A DNA stretch of 37,371 bases from Sphingobacteriales bacterium (GCA_900299495.1 OMKD01000273.1:1-37371), one strand, 5' to 3'; shown: positions 12,158 through 19,242, counted from the stretch's first letter. The notes: generated from the sequence alone by a model not told the origin. A program made the numbers and translations.

Positions 12158-12715
12158 ATGGCGAAGAAAGATATTTTATTGATCGGTATCATTGTTGTGG
12201 TTTTGGCCGCACTTACTTATTTGATCTATGATCAGGTATTCAGTGATAAGGATGCCACAAATGAAGTAGTTTCTAATACTTTGGAAGATACCTATGAAGA
12301 AGATTCTGAAGATATGTACGATTATGACGAGCCGAATGAATCGGAAGACGAGAGTGACTTTGAAGATGAGGATATGACTGCAGATGATCTTATTGCCGAT
12401 GCTATTGATACAGATGAGTCAGAGGTTGTAGAGCCTGAAGATTATGAAGAAGATACTTTTGACAGTGATTTAGCCTCTTCAGGAGGAAAGTATATGGTAA
12501 TGGCTGGACAGTTCCGTCAAATGAAATGGGCTGAAGAACAGCAAAGACTAATGGTGAAAAAAGGGTACACTAAATCAAAAATCGAAATTTTTGATAAAGG
12601 AGCCTGGGCCAATGTACTTGTTGATCGCTTTGACAATTCCGCAGAGGCAGAAGCCTTAGTGGCAGAGTTAACCGATAAAGGAGTGGAAGCAACTATTATC
12701 GTTAAAAAGAACTAA
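12158..12715 (+). CDS. SPOR-domain-like membrane-anchored protein with acidic linker
   Basis: 185 aa; TM segment ILLIGIIVVVLAALTYLIYD, long D/E-rich linker, C-terminal KYMVMAGQFRQMKWAEEQQRLMVKKGYTKSKIEIFDKGAWANVLVDRFDNSAEAEALVAELTDKGVEATIIVK typical of SPOR. Confidence 0.82.
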   Translation: MAKKDILLIGIIVVVLAALTYLIYDQVFSDKDATNEVVSNTLEDTYEEDSEDMYDYDEPNESEDESDFEDEDMTADDLIADAIDTDESEVVEPEDYEEDTFDSDLASSGGKYMVMAGQFRQMKWAEEQQRLMVKKGYTKSKIEIFDKGAWANVLVDRFDNSAEAEALVAELTDKGVEATIIVKKN

Positions 12716-12753: not shown

Positions 12754-13045
12754 ACATATCCTGCCAAGCAAGTACTCCACCAGTCAGGTTTTTAACATCG
12801 CTGAATCCAGCTTGAAGCATCAGGTGCTGAGCCATAGCAGATCGCTTACCTGATCGACAATGAACGATTACTTCTTTTCTTTTGATGTCCTCAAGATCAC
12901 CAAGTGCGCCCATGATTTCACCTAGAGGAATAAGTTTTCCTCCTATATTGAATTCATCATATTCATGTTTCTCTCTAACGTCTATCAGGACAAAATCTTC
13001 TTTATTGTCCATCTTCGCCTTAAGGTCTTGTACTGAAATTTCCAT
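12752..13045 (-). CDS. Rhodanese-like domain protein
   Basis: 97 aa; LIDVREKHEYDEFNI, VHCRSGKRSAMAQHLML, LTGGVLAWQD. Confidence 0.93.
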   Translation of the reverse strand: MEISVQDLKAKMDNKEDFVLIDVREKHEYDEFNIGGKLIPLGEIMGALGDLEDIKRKEVIVHCRSGKRSAMAQHLMLQAGFSDVKNLTGGVLAWQDM

Positions 13046-13046
13046 A

Positions 13047-15521
13047 TTATTTGATTATTACGAATTTAGTTTTTGCATAGCTAATACCCTTATCATCTTC
13101 CACATTAAGAAAATACATGCCTTGCGGTAGCTCTTCTAAATTGATTTGGTGCTGTAAGTCTAAAATTTTGACTTGATTACCCAATTGGTCGAATATCCTG
13201 CATAATGAATTAGCTAGAACATTGTCCATGTCAAAGTTTAAAAAGCCTGTTGTAGGATTCGGATAAACATTTAGTTCATAAGTGACATCTTCCTCACGCG
13301 TACTTGTTGGTATAATATCTTCATTTCCTACAAGTGCACGAATCATAGGACTTCCTTGAATTATTCCTTCTTGATTAACCCAGTCACCCCAAATGTTTGC
13401 ATATATTTTGGAGGAGACATCACGATTGATGTCCAAGCCAACTGGTATACCAAAATTGGTTGAACTCAATTGTTGAAAACCTATGTAGAACTTCTGGCCT
13501 GCCTCCAAAGGAATTCCAGCTTCCTGGCCAAAGATATCCTTTAACAGATAGGTGGTAAAGCCTTGTAAGGTATCGAAATAACTGTCTGCATATATAGGAC
13601 TAATGAACTCCAAACTTTGGGTTGGTTCATTTGACAGTTCGTCCAGGTATATGTGAATAGAAAATAATTGATTCTCTATGTTTCCATTGATATGTGGAAA
13701 ATGGAATTGTACAGCCTTCAGTGTGTCCTCTATCTTAGACTCAAACTCCAAAGCAAAGGAAGGATTGTCAGTCTGTGGATTTTCAAGATATATCTGTCTT
13801 TCGGCAGTACCATCATCGTAAGCAAAATAGTTGTCGAAACGATGGATTCTGCTCACCTCGTCATTTTCTGTTATCTCATTTTGCAGGTTGAAGGTGTATG
13901 TTAATTCTAGTTCTGCCTTGTCGAGATTTGAAAATTGACTATTAATCGTATTAATAACATTTGATACCCTATCCACGGATAATTCCTGATAAAAGAAAGA
14001 AAATATCCCAGGTTCAACATTAACCGCGTCAATTACATTAAGGTTTAGAGGGATGCTTGTCCCAGTAGTTCTCTCTGTAAGTAATATATCTGAATCATTT
14101 GCCGGATTTTGAGGGATTTCATAATGATTAAAAAATACGGACTCCAGTTCCTGAACTACAATTTGCTGATTGATATCCGCAAGAAAATGCTTCCAGGGCA
14201 TATGCTCATATTCTAATATTAATGAATTTGGAATATCCACAAAAGCTACATCATCAAAAACACTGTTGAATGCTTCTGAGGCAGCTAATCTTACGTAATC
14301 AATATGCCAAAGATCATAAACCCCTGCAGGACTTACCTCATTGACGAATCTGAATTGGAAGCCATCGTATCTAAAATCTTCCGGAACATTTAGGCTTTGA
14401 AATTCAAATGGAGGAGAGATGCCAATAGGTGTATTTGAATCAAATCCACCACGAACCCATTGGGTTACCCAATTGCCATTTTGTTCTTTGAACTGAACTC
14501 TTAAACTATCTTGTTCATTCGGGTAAAGTCCATTCCCTTTTCTGGTATAAAAGAATCTTAGACTTACATCCTGATTGTTTAATCCTGCCAGATTCAACCC
14601 TCTTGAGGTCAAATAATCCGCTTCCCCTGATTCCAAATAAGGCGCACCTGTATGGTCCAAACCATCCAATGTTACCATTCCAACAGAAGGAGGATTCTCT
14701 GCCATGGTATTATTAACAAATCCGTCCTTTGTTAACCATCTACCAGAAGAGGTGTAAGGTTGATTACTATCTGAAAAATCATCAAAAAAAGGAATATCTA
14801 TATTGTATGATTGTACTTCCAACGGTACTTTGTAATAATCACAGACCGCAAATTCATCACATAATATTGCACAAATCGTATCTGTTCCTGCACCCAAACC
14901 AGCTGTGTATTTGAAACAAGAGGTAGGTTCATCATAGGTCATCCAGGCATTGCTTGCTAATTCATTATTGTATGAATTATCCGGGCAACTATAAAAAATA
15001 TTGCAGCTAAGTGATCCAGGTAAAAGATCACTGTCCAAACAAATATTTTCTATCGTTTCTTCTTCATTGATACTTATGCTGTTTAGAATGTGCGTTTGAC
15101 TTTCTCTTTGCGTCACAAAAGTATATTCGATTGTGGCGCAGTCTCCTTGATCTGGACAATACTCTACGCATACTTGCTCTAAAAATCCATCAAAGTCTCC
15201 TGCTTCATAGATTAGAAAATCTCCCTCAAAACTAACACCACCCTGTGCCTGAATTCCATCACAGTCTACAATTGTGAATACAGGATTTACAGAATATCCT
15301 ATTCCAGCGGTATCGATCTTAATATCTACCGTTTCGTTTTTTAGTAAATAGTTATAGTTGCCATATAGATTTGGGCAATTCATCATGCTAACCTGTAGCG
15401 CTTCATTTTGAACAGAACCATTGTACAAAGCAGGATTACTTTGCAGCGGAGCTTCCACAAGTTGTGCAGCCATAACAAAAGGAAGAAAACCAAGAAATAG
15501 GGTGTATATAGATTTCCACAT
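13047..15521 (-). CDS. Secreted surface protein with T9SS type A C-terminal sorting domain
   Basis: 824 aa; signal peptide; C-terminus LNVYPNPTTGFLNFDMD...LEELPQGMYFLNVEDDKGISYAKTKFVIIK. Confidence 0.85.
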   Translation of the reverse strand: MWKSIYTLFLGFLPFVMAAQLVEAPLQSNPALYNGSVQNEALQVSMMNCPNLYGNYNYLLKNETVDIKIDTAGIGYSVNPVFTIVDCDGIQAQGGVSFEGDFLIYEAGDFDGFLEQVCVEYCPDQGDCATIEYTFVTQRESQTHILNSISINEEETIENICLDSDLLPGSLSCNIFYSCPDNSYNNELASNAWMTYDEPTSCFKYTAGLGAGTDTICAILCDEFAVCDYYKVPLEVQSYNIDIPFFDDFSDSNQPYTSSGRWLTKDGFVNNTMAENPPSVGMVTLDGLDHTGAPYLESGEADYLTSRGLNLAGLNNQDVSLRFFYTRKGNGLYPNEQDSLRVQFKEQNGNWVTQWVRGGFDSNTPIGISPPFEFQSLNVPEDFRYDGFQFRFVNEVSPAGVYDLWHIDYVRLAASEAFNSVFDDVAFVDIPNSLILEYEHMPWKHFLADINQQIVVQELESVFFNHYEIPQNPANDSDILLTERTTGTSIPLNLNVIDAVNVEPGIFSFFYQELSVDRVSNVINTINSQFSNLDKAELELTYTFNLQNEITENDEVSRIHRFDNYFAYDDGTAERQIYLENPQTDNPSFALEFESKIEDTLKAVQFHFPHINGNIENQLFSIHIYLDELSNEPTQSLEFISPIYADSYFDTLQGFTTYLLKDIFGQEAGIPLEAGQKFYIGFQQLSSTNFGIPVGLDINRDVSSKIYANIWGDWVNQEGIIQGSPMIRALVGNEDIIPTSTREEDVTYELNVYPNPTTGFLNFDMDNVLANSLCRIFDQLGNQVKILDLQHQINLEELPQGMYFLNVEDDKGISYAKTKFVIIK

Positions 15522-15680: not shown

Positions 15681-16580
15681 TTAGAACTGATTTTCATCTT
15701 CATCTGATACATCTAGATCGTCAGAACCGCAGGCCATGGGTTTTTCCAGCGTCAGATAAATCTTTACATAATCACCGGATATAAGATTTGTTCCAGGATC
15801 GGGTGTCTGTTTGTAGATATATGCTTCTTCCAGGTCAATAACACTGGAATCTTCTATTGCATCAAAATTTAATTGACTGGATTCCAATAGGAATTTTGCA
15901 GTGGATAATTTAAGGCAGACAAGCTCTGGAACGGTTCTTTGTGCAATTACCTGTTTGGTAATAACTAAATCCAGTTTTTCCCCCTTCTCCACAAAGTATC
16001 CTTCTTTTAGCATCTCTTCCTCGATCTTTCTACCCTTATGATACATGTAGAGTATTGTTCCTTTTGCTTGCTTAGTATCTATGATCTCTTCCTTGATTTC
16101 AGAATTGATGCCTCTAACCTCCAATATTCTTTTGTACGATTCATACATATACGCAGCATCTCTGAATAAAGGCACCTCTACTTTTGGTGGAGTGTTAGAA
16201 CTAACGGTCAAATAGACTGTACGACCTTCTTTGATTTTAGCACCCGGACTCGGATTCTGAGAAAGAACTACTCCCGCTTTGATATCTTCTTTCCAAAGTG
16301 AATCAAATACAACAACCTTATAGTCCCCCTTTCGAGCAATCTTTTTTACTTGTTTTAACGGCAATCGTTGAAGATTATCCAAATAGATAGACTCTCCATG
16401 TTGTGTGTACATATTTAAACCAATGATCACTACGAATACAAAGCTTAAAATAGCCACAAGCATTAGTCCAAGATTTTTTAGGACCATTGGAGTTGTCAAA
16501 AAGATCTTTAGATTATTTGGTGCTGCTTTTAATGAAGGCAGAAATGTATTAGTCCACCATTGTTTTACTCGCTCTTGCAT
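15681..16580 (-). CDS. PASTA-domain membrane protein (about three PASTA domains, no kinase domain)
   Basis: ORF 15681-16631; MQERVKQWW at 16580 is a plausible start. TM LGLMLVAILSFVFVVIIGLNMY, then PASTA-like units (VVLSQNPSPGAKIKEGRTVYLTVS; GTILYMYHKGRKIEEEMLKEGYFVEKGEKLDLVIT; VPELVCLKLSTAKFLLESSQLNFDAI...YKQTPDPGTNLISGDYVKIYLT). Confidence 0.88.
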   Translation of the reverse strand: MQERVKQWWTNTFLPSLKAAPNNLKIFLTTPMVLKNLGLMLVAILSFVFVVIIGLNMYTQHGESIYLDNLQRLPLKQVKKIARKGDYKVVVFDSLWKEDIKAGVVLSQNPSPGAKIKEGRTVYLTVSSNTPPKVEVPLFRDAAYMYESYKRILEVRGINSEIKEEIIDTKQAKGTILYMYHKGRKIEEEMLKEGYFVEKGEKLDLVITKQVIAQRTVPELVCLKLSTAKFLLESSQLNFDAIEDSSVIDLEEAYIYKQTPDPGTNLISGDYVKIYLTLEKPMACGSDDLDVSDEDENQF

Positions 16581-19242
16581 GGAAGCCAAATTCAAGAATT
16601 TTATCAATAAAGTTGTAAGGTTTATACCCATTAATGGCAGCCTGATGGAAGATACAAGTAGCAGGAGTCATACCCGGTAGAGAATTTACCTCTATAATGA
16701 TGGTTTCCGCTTGGTTGTTATCGAATATACGAACGAAGGCATCTATACGTGCATACCCTTGAACATTCAGTACTTCAGCTGCTTTTTGAAGTGTATGTTT
16801 TACCTGTTCTGCAATATAAGAATATTCATTAGGATTCTTTGAATATCTTGCCGGAGTAATGTTTTGTCCTTCTCCCGCGAGGAATTTTTCCTGCAAGGAA
16901 AGTATTTCACCACTGGCAAGTGCTTCAGAAGGTTCGAACATTTCATATTCTACTTTACCGTCCAGCTCTTTTGTTAGGAATCCACCTGTTATCTCTAAGA
17001 AATGCTTGGCACCTTCTTTTTGGATTAGTTTTTCAAAAAGAATTTGATCCTTAATAGGAAATTCTTCTTTCGCATCCAGATCCAATATTGCTCTTTGCTC
17101 CTGACCAAAACTATCATCAGATCGGAACATCAGCTCCGAGAAAGCAATTAGTTGCTTTTGGTCTTTGATGACTTTTACAGCAGAGGAACAGCCATCATCC
17201 ACTGGTTTTGCTATCAATGGATAGCCCATATTTTGCTCCACTTGCTCAATAAAGGCAGTTGGATTTTCGTTGAACGTTGCTTTGCTCAACAAGAGCTGAT
17301 CCGTAACGGAAAAACCGTGTTGCTTTAGCGTTTGGAGCGTATTGTATTTATTGATGGTTACAGAAGATGCCTCTGCTGAACACCCATTATATGGTAAACC
17401 CATTTCATCAAGTCTTGCCTGTACTTCACCATCTTCACCCGGTCTTCCATGCAATGCAATGAAAACGGCATTCGCTTTTTCACGAAGTTCTTCATAGCTA
17501 ATCTCCACAGCATTGAATATCGTGTCAGAGCCAGAGTAGGTCTCTGTCATTTGGGTCAAGGATGCTTTGATTTCATCAATAACCGGATGATGCTCATTCT
17601 TCAGTATTTTATCCCGAATATCGTCTGCATTATCTTTTAGTAGGAGATTTATTGGGATTTGGAAAAGCCTGTGACTATCCCCATCTTTCATCAGGAAAAC
17701 AGGCATAGGAGCATATTTTTCAGAGCTCGCTAGCTTTTCATAGATATTTCTTCCGGATTCAACAGATATATGTCGTTCAAAAGAGTATCCACCAAGAAAT
17801 ACAGCAACTTTAGATTTGCTTGCTTCCTGATTTTTTTGGTTTTGCATCTGTTTCTTAAGGCTCTCGTATAAGCCTTCTGCACGTGTTTTTCTAACACTGT
17901 CTTTGATGCGTTCCTGTAATGAAACCCTTATGATAAAGGTCAAAAACTGCGATGGATTCAAACCGATCTCTGCTGCCTGATGGAAGAAGAATGATGATGG
18001 CAACATCCCAGATGTTGTATTCGGATCATTTAGGAATATTTTTCCTTCTGGGTTTATAAACCCATCGATTCTTGCGTAAGTATGGAACTGAAGGTACTCG
18101 AAAAGACGAACACATTCTGCCATGATTCTTCGAATGTCTCCGTGGTCATCAAGATTGATTGGAGTCAGTTTTCTAGATAAACCAGGCATATATTTTGATC
18201 GATAATCAAAAAGCTCGCCACCTTTTACAATTTCAGTTGGCGGTAACGCTGCTGCTGTCCCATCTTCTTTTCGAACCACAATACAGGAGAACTCTTTTCC
18301 CTCAATAAAGGATTCTAGAATGACCAATTGTTCATTGGACCAAGCTTCCAACAAGACTTTATCCTTACCAGATTTAAAGGCTTTGTTTAGCGTATTTAAT
18401 AATTCTTCCGGATGATAGACGGTCTCATCTAAAACATCCATTGGGAAGCCAAGTCCATCTCGAATATCTGCCATGTTCCTCAGGTATTCGATCTGTTTTT
18501 GCTGATCCATGGATTCCCATTGATCTTTGTGAACCCACTGTCTGAAAAAAGCTAAATCAACAGCGTCTACAAAATCCTGAAAATCGGTATCATTATTAAG
18601 TATACTAACTCCTATAGAGGATCCTTGTTTAGCAGGTCTGATTACAATTGGATATTTGATGTCAGATTTGGCCTGCTCATAAATACTATCCTGATTACCT
18701 TCTAACCAGTCCGCTCTTTTGAGTTCAATGATGTTTGGACAATTGAAATCAGCTACCTCCATCATTTTTTTCTGGAAGGCTTTATCTATACCTATAGAAC
18801 AAGCTCTGATGCCTGATCCTGAATAAGGAATATCAAAGGATTCAAGCATACCCTGGATCTGTCCATCTTCACCAAATTCTCCATGCAATGCAAGGAAGGC
18901 AAAATCAATGCGATCACTCAATTGTTCCCAGGACAGTTCTTTGCCGACAGAGGCACGCAGTGCTTTAAGTTCAGCATCCGAAAGATGATTCAAACTTTCT
19001 AGGTAAACTTGGAATTGATGTTCGGTTTCAGGCAAATATTCCACTGGAGGAAAGAAGTCTCGGATTGTTCCTTTATATATATAGGACCAATCTAATTCGA
19101 TCAAACACCCATAACTATCAACGAATATTGGAACGGGTTGAAAAAGGGATTTGTCAAGGTTGTCATAAACCGTTCTTCCACCTGCGAACGAAATTTCCCT
19201 TTCACGGGAAGGACCTCCAAAGAATATGCCGACTTTTATCAT
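16549..19242 (-). CDS. Tandem fused D-alanine-D-alanine ligase-like protein (two ATP-grasp Ddl modules in one ORF)
   Basis: 897 aa. Module 1 (res ~1-455): FGGPSREREISFAGG, LALHGEFGEDGQIQGMLE, QGSSIGVS, FDYRSKYMPG, ARIDGFI...LNDPNTTSGM. Module 2 (res ~478-897): LGGYSFERHISVESG, ALHGRPGEDGEVQARLD, LQEKFLAGEGQNITPAR, ARIDAFV...IEVNSLPGMTPATCIFHQAA. Confidence 0.93.
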   Translation of the reverse strand: MIKVGIFFGGPSREREISFAGGRTVYDNLDKSLFQPVPIFVDSYGCLIELDWSYIYKGTIRDFFPPVEYLPETEHQFQVYLESLNHLSDAELKALRASVGKELSWEQLSDRIDFAFLALHGEFGEDGQIQGMLESFDIPYSGSGIRACSIGIDKAFQKKMMEVADFNCPNIIELKRADWLEGNQDSIYEQAKSDIKYPIVIRPAKQGSSIGVSILNNDTDFQDFVDAVDLAFFRQWVHKDQWESMDQQKQIEYLRNMADIRDGLGFPMDVLDETVYHPEELLNTLNKAFKSGKDKVLLEAWSNEQLVILESFIEGKEFSCIVVRKEDGTAAALPPTEIVKGGELFDYRSKYMPGLSRKLTPINLDDHGDIRRIMAECVRLFEYLQFHTYARIDGFINPEGKIFLNDPNTTSGMLPSSFFFHQAAEIGLNPSQFLTFIIRVSLQERIKDSVRKTRAEGLYESLKKQMQNQKNQEASKSKVAVFLGGYSFERHISVESGRNIYEKLASSEKYAPMPVFLMKDGDSHRLFQIPINLLLKDNADDIRDKILKNEHHPVIDEIKASLTQMTETYSGSDTIFNAVEISYEELREKANAVFIALHGRPGEDGEVQARLDEMGLPYNGCSAEASSVTINKYNTLQTLKQHGFSVTDQLLLSKATFNENPTAFIEQVEQNMGYPLIAKPVDDGCSSAVKVIKDQKQLIAFSELMFRSDDSFGQEQRAILDLDAKEEFPIKDQILFEKLIQKEGAKHFLEITGGFLTKELDGKVEYEMFEPSEALASGEILSLQEKFLAGEGQNITPARYSKNPNEYSYIAEQVKHTLQKAAEVLNVQGYARIDAFVRIFDNNQAETIIIEVNSLPGMTPATCIFHQAAINGYKPYNFIDKILEFGFHARASKTMVD

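Follow-up and report, generated by a model that had tools for sequence, protein, structure and literature searches.

The window, a stretch of 37,371 nucleotides from a Sphingobacteriales bacterium (GCA_900299495.1, OMKD01000273.1:1-37371), carries a gene in which two D-alanine--D-alanine ligase (Ddl) modules follow one another within a single open reading frame (ORF) of 897 amino acids (aa). The features of the locus are listed in Table 1. The two modules had been recognised in the initial annotation, which was silent on the strand; the ORF starts with ATG and lies on the minus strand, while the plus strand of the same interval is not open and contains many stops. Upon translation both sets of Ddl motifs appear in the order in which they had been described. 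The stop codon of the tandem gene is overlapped by a gene for a protein with one transmembrane (TM) helix and PASTA domains.

Table 1. Features of the tandem ddl locus (positions in the window).
Feature	Position	Strand	Evidence and remarks
Tandem D-alanine--D-alanine ligase gene	16549..19242	-	897 aa plus stop; sole Ddl of the genome
Module 1, residues 1-453, Ddl N and ATP-grasp domains	17884..19242	-	Pfam, residue mapping, model
Insertion of ~64 residues (~232-295) in module 1, ahead of the E180-equivalent strand	18358..18549	-	alignment
Omega-loop of module 1, residues 342-355, ...FDYRSKYMPGL...	18178..18219	-	alignment, model (low-confidence loop)
Predicted helical linker, residues 454-475, length fixed, sequence variable	17818..17883	-	alignment, model
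Module 2, residues 476-897, Ddl N and ATP-grasp domains	16552..17817	-	Pfam, residue mapping, model
Omega-loop of module 2, residues 776-793, ...ILSLQEKFLAGEGQN...	16864..16917	-	alignment, model
Downstream gene overlapping the ddl stop, TM-PASTA protein	15681..16631	-	Pfam PF03793, hydropathy, context

Both halves of the protein are covered by Pfam domains, with Dala_Dala_lig_N found twice and Dala_Dala_lig_C in four stretches (E-values 5e-48 and 5e-53). PF01820 reaches 163 bits (cut-off 34.6) and PF07478 180 bits (cut-off 24), each in both halves. Moreover TIGR01205 and NF002378 are above cut-off for the 897-aa protein, the NCBIfam name being D-alanine--D-alanine ligase. Profile searches with PF01820 and PF07478 gave no second Ddl in the genome of the window (3.41 Mb in 384 contigs, 94.7% complete), where PF01820 matches the two tandem modules only. 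The other PF07478 matches (C223, C340, C34) lie in frames of 940, 451 and 391 aa and were rejected as Ddl, since PF01820 is found only in the tandem; presumably they represent CarB-, AccC- and PurK-like ATP-grasp proteins. Related genomes with a tandem likewise contain just the two PF01820 modules, except for three (G003, G020 and G022) with an extra Ddl. The profile matches in both halves and the search for another ddl, checks of the kind proposed by the initial annotation, turned out in its favour. From the status as sole Ddl we infer that the 897-aa ORF makes D-alanyl-D-alanine (D-Ala-D-Ala), the final unit that goes into the peptide of the cell wall.

The active sites were compared over 109 aligned tandems using the residue numbering of E. 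coli DdlB (sequence from MG1655). Module 1 retains E15, S150, Y216, K215, R255, D257, N272 and S281 and shows the substitutions K144R (79/109), E270D (107/109) and P275S (109/109). Module 2 retains E15, K97, K144, E187, K215, R255, D257, E270 and N272, with S150C in 108, G153A and Y216F in all and S281T in 106 of the 109 sequences. The corresponding residues of the window protein are S208 (S150 in DdlB), Y351 (Y216), R391, D393, D406 (E270), N408 and R202 (K144) for module 1, and C685 (S150), F787 (Y216) and T862 (S281) for module 2, in which K679, E851, N853, R832 and D834 are canonical. Measured against the set of 11 DdlB residues used as family check (E15, K97, K144, S150, E187, K215, Y216, R255, D257, E270, N272), the window protein thus deviates at K144R and E270D in module 1 and at S150C and Y216F in module 2. 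As the substitutions are so uniform, they do not represent random decay. The asymmetric evolution of the halves that a covalent tandem was thought to permit is borne out by these consistent differences. A Phe at position 216 makes an altered acceptor preference of module 2 possible, though it does not by itself demonstrate one. In addition, the ~64-residue insertion is present in all module-1 sequences of the alignment and in the truncated '1.5' forms described below; single Ddls are without it.

The structure of the window protein was predicted using AlphaFold2 with 55 homologues. The mean predicted local distance difference test (pLDDT) is 86 and the predicted template modelling score (pTM) 0.86, so that the position of one module relative to the other is confidently predicted. 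A pLDDT below 50 is confined to the two omega-loops (342-355 and 776-793), which bear Y351 and F787. Residues 454-475 between the modules are predicted to form a helix; the sequence of this linker is poorly kept (18% mean identity to the window protein, residues 447-474) and its length is constant, with 36 residues over the 445-480 span in 98/109 relatives. Foldseek places the modules among Ddls, with template modelling scores of 0.71-0.85 by target length and 3i12 as best match. The solved Ddl relatives are all single chains of 306-386 aa. Based on this model, in which the modules form one confident unit, the arrangement fits the intramolecular pseudo-dimer for which a structure prediction had been recommended. 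Ddl interface positions (as reported in PMC6899670) are better kept in module 1 than in module 2, a pattern that would fit an asymmetric interface.

The fusion recurs in ~100 distinct proteins, mostly with 50-63% full-length identity, from Saprospiraceae, other Chitinophagales and Cytophagales. Among 60 related genomes, 33 have the tandem, which a contig end interrupts in five cases, and 26 a single Ddl only; the remaining one, which is 57% complete, shows no Ddl. Named GTDB representatives with the tandem belong to Saprospiraceae, Lewinella, Aureispira, Rhodocytophaga, Adhaeribacter and Pontibacter (55-63% identity), with 76% reached in the closest relative. A phylum-wide draw of 396 genomes contains full tandems in a few only, hence most Bacteroidota keep a single Ddl. 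No tandem Ddl was found in viral contigs. Taken together, the tandem Ddl is an ancient architecture across several families and orders and not a local curiosity.

One genome (G476) holds a second, very different tandem Ddl (L182 / L184, 36% identity) on a contig of 6744 bases (C311). This contig has a guanine plus cytosine content of 0.38 vs 0.45 at the main locus, and a serine recombinase gene adjoins the second tandem, which shows the usual signatures (D270 and S275 in module 1; C150, F216 and T281 in module 2). C311 is possibly a contaminating contig from another phylum. If so, the tandem exists outside Bacteroidota.

A tree of the halves together with single Ddls, as suggested by the initial annotation, was built from 92 Ddl modules. 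Module 1 and module 2 each form one clade (support 95 and 100) with similar internal order, indicating one old fusion that was inherited as a unit. Identity between the two modules is 24%. Across species they are conserved to the same degree, with mean identities of 0.588 (module 1) and 0.594 (module 2). Columns common to modules 1 and 2 alone number 12, vs 9 and 5 for the alternatives, and both modules fall on one side of a branch with a support of just 63. An internal duplication would be slightly favoured over a fusion of two different Ddls.

The link to the TM-PASTA protein, physical and genetic, lies outside what the initial annotation covered. Membrane proteins of this type serve in sensing the cell wall. 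In the window, the likely start of the PASTA gene is the ATG at 16580. The protein consists of a short cytoplasmic N-terminus, one TM helix (~16407-16475) and PASTA domains at 16197-16379 and 15753-15935. Positive charges before the TM helix would agree with Ddl lying in the cytoplasm and PASTA in the periplasm. Across 105 distinct tandems the PASTA gene is adjacent and on the same strand in 68 and fused in frame in 20, while three tandems stop at a contig end. The Ddl-Ddl-TM-PASTA fusions are 1140-1341 aa in length. The coupling to PASTA was confirmed by Pfam. A single chain of cytoplasmic module, TM helix and PASTA is thus found in these 20 tandems and not in the window, where the PASTA protein is encoded by the separate overlapping gene. 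At single-Ddl loci with enough flank a TM-PASTA gene occurs in just 2/34. The in-frame fusion in many genomes represents Rosetta-stone evidence that the Ddl tandem and the PASTA protein work together, and suggests a physical link of cytoplasmic D-Ala-D-Ala synthesis with periplasmic peptidoglycan sensing.

Some lineages have lost most of module 2. In three genomes of one family (f30; L121, L122, L123), the Ddl has a length of ~560-590 aa and consists of module 1 and a stump of the module-2 N-terminal domain, the rest of module 2 being gone. Searches of these genomes gave no Ddl match besides this form. A gene of 623 aa on a Bernardetia plasmid encodes module 1 and an N-terminal stump of module 2 as well (L148, Bernardetia sp. 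Wsw4-3y2, 601-kb plasmid NZ_CP147018.1, with two matching places in that record). The truncated forms fall inside the module-1 clade with Cytophagales tandems (support 99) in one tree and beside it in the larger tree. Their stump argues for descent from a tandem, and the Ddl of f30 is a half-deleted tandem fixed in a family. Module 1 alone appears to suffice in those lineages, and hence is probably sufficient for D-Ala-D-Ala.

Other tandems have lost active-site residues. In the residue table, core catalytic losses are confined to L033 (G022), L037 (G003) and L164 (G020), and these are exactly the three relatives whose genomes encode a single Ddl as well. Nine further cases came from a wider sample of 198 genomes from the family (G540, G539, G600, G548, G574, G490, G473, G563 and G512); all nine tandems have lost active-site residues and a separate full Ddl is present in every one of the genomes. 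The damage hits both modules wherever both are readable (the contig of G563 ends before module 2) and is mildest in G022 and G540. TM-PASTA is retained in the same ORF in all eleven damaged tandems with a complete locus, including G473, which has lost most of module 2. Within one genus (g32) the tandem is decayed in G548, which has an extra Ddl, and intact in G604, which has none. The examined tandems in genomes without another Ddl have intact active-site residues. This pattern suggests that the cell requires the tandem as a ligase only as long as no other Ddl is present, and that both modules serve that one job. The dead tandem may be kept for another role.

Based on this analysis, the tandem Ddl is real and ancient and very probably functional. 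We consider the 897-aa protein to be the sole D-Ala-D-Ala ligase of the cell and a covalent pseudo-heterodimer with module 1 as catalytic half, module 2 as its partner and a coupling to PASTA, to which we assign a probability of roughly 0.7. Module 1, which keeps the Tyr-type pocket of dipeptide ligases, would make D-Ala-D-Ala. Module 2 has kept the ATP/Mg residues and has a pocket of Cys150, Phe216 and Thr281; most likely it would bind ATP and support module 1 allosterically or structurally, or serve as another ligase whose acceptor preference is altered. Through the PASTA partner the enzyme would be held at the inner membrane, and the supply of dipeptide may be coupled to the condition of the peptidoglycan in the periplasm.

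Several points weigh against this assignment. Module 1 of the window carries K144R and E270D, which could lower ATP/Mg binding, and module 1 of the truncated forms, unlike that of the window, has K144 and P275. A downstream PASTA gene is missing in 14/105 tandems, so the PASTA link is not obligatory. Finally, the association of damage with an extra Ddl goes back to just two independent events in the tree, too few for the sign test (p 0.5) to have any power, though the co-occurrence is perfect.

It is also possible, if only tentatively so, that the tandem together with PASTA is mainly a peptidoglycan receptor or scaffold, with ligase activity as one of two functions and one that can be lost. 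The complex might then represent a transmembrane peptidoglycan-sensing device that is active as sole Ddl and has repeatedly become a dead receptor once a separate Ddl took over. Such a role would agree with the loss of catalytic residues in twelve examined genomes that have a single Ddl too, and with the TM-PASTA part kept in one ORF at the eleven complete loci, even in G473. However, dead copies could just be in decay while PASTA persists for reasons unrelated to them, and the same two events on the tree are all that is available here. Moreover catalytic residues are intact where the tandem is the only Ddl, which indicates that ligase activity is under selection in the window.

Less is to be said for a bifunctional protein in which module 1 makes D-Ala-D-Ala and module 2 has another specificity, e.g. 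for a depsipeptide such as D-Ala-D-lactate (D-Lac), and we regard it as unlikely. In every module 2, Phe occupies the position of DdlB Y216, the site at which Phe or Tyr sets depsipeptide vs dipeptide activity in lactic acid bacteria (PMC5996685). The Ddl of L. curvatus aligns with the same Phe, and the intact ATP/Mg residues of module 2 as well as its conservation, which equals that of module 1, are in line with a second activity. However, module 2 also carries S150C and S281T, positions that are unchanged in the D-Lac-type Ddl of L. curvatus. With a single Tyr-type Ddl present both modules lose residues together, so the product of module 2, if any, is not independently essential, and the truncated lineages live without module 2 altogether. 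Our literature search yielded no paper that describes D-Lac termini for this group. One protein of PF01427, the family to which VanX belongs, is encoded in the genome of the window, though so broad a family is not diagnostic.

The reversed assignment, with module 2 as main ligase and module 1 as a regulatory or weakened half, is rather improbable. Its canonical K144, E270 and N272 speak for module 2, in which the ATP/Mg residues are kept, while two of them are altered in module 1 (R202, D406). However, of the E15-S150-Y216 set module 2 retains only E15, and S281 of the D-Ala pocket is replaced as well; moreover, lineages that dropped one half dropped module 2. An assembly or frameshift artefact merging two neighbouring ORFs, named by the initial annotation as what would refute the fusion, was looked for and can be dismissed, since nothing was found in its support and the identical fusion with constant linker length and no internal stop recurs full-length in dozens of independent and many unrelated assemblies, including isolate genomes of Aureispira, Rhodocytophaga, Adhaeribacter and Pontibacter.

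Among known systems, both tandem modules are members of the DdlA/DdlB family (PF01820 and PF07478; TIGR01205) by profile and fold. Solved DdlA/DdlB enzymes are single chains, in contrast to the 897-aa tandem with its two differently substituted active sites. Module 2 shares the discriminating Phe with Phe-type depsipeptide ligases (Ddl of Leuconostoc mesenteroides and L. plantarum) but differs from them by S150C, G153A and S281T and by being part of a fused protein. In the carbamoyl-phosphate synthase large chain, labour is divided between the two ATP-grasp modules. This enzyme (structural match 1bxr) also combines two such modules in one chain, but catalyses another reaction, has extra domains and no close sequence relation. 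PASTA Ser/Thr kinases (PknB/PrkC/StkP) consist of a cytoplasmic catalytic part, one TM helix and extracytoplasmic PASTA domains. The triple-fusion relatives of the window protein are built likewise, with the difference that the pair of Ddl modules replaces the kinase. In the window itself PASTA is encoded separately, by the overlapping gene.

The initial annotation knew of no characterised tandem Ddl. The plastid DDL of plants is however a published fusion of two DDLs found throughout the plant lineage (PMC9954125), hence the tandem Ddl as such is already known. As in the window, Arabidopsis At-DDL and Physcomitrella PpDdl comprise two DDL units in one chain; unlike the bacterial tandem they are plastid enzymes for which a PASTA partner is not reported. 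Loss of DDL in Physcomitrella leads to a chloroplast-division phenotype. The P. patens Ddl was reported to be nearest to homologues of the Fibrobacteres-Chlorobi-Bacteroidetes group (PMC9434261). As the plant enzymes are fused too and the moss enzyme is reported as nearest to this group, plant DDL may be related to the Bacteroidota tandem or may derive from it. In the literature searched we found neither a bacterial tandem Ddl nor its coupling to PASTA nor dead tandems described. Of the new findings, the strongest are that active-site residues are consistently divided between the two modules and that the Ddl pair is connected to TM-PASTA, with catalysis lost beside another Ddl. Ddl is an essential antibiotic target (D-cycloserine) and normally treated as a simple homodimer. 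The covalent tandem makes the asymmetry of Ddl subunits directly testable, with module-1-only and dead variants as natural controls.

The product of the gene after PASTA (13047-15521, minus strand) is a secreted protein that contains a 'PFFDDF' motif and ends in a sorting-like tail. In several distant relatives, including L053, L111 and L116, PASTA is likewise followed by a gene with a similar motif; seemingly the order ddl-PASTA-'PFFDDF' gene is conserved. Further along, at 12158-12715 on the plus strand, a small acidic membrane-anchored protein of 185 aa is encoded, whose C-terminus is SPOR-like by eye. A look-alike of this protein is located near the L053 tandem (12832-13473, minus strand).

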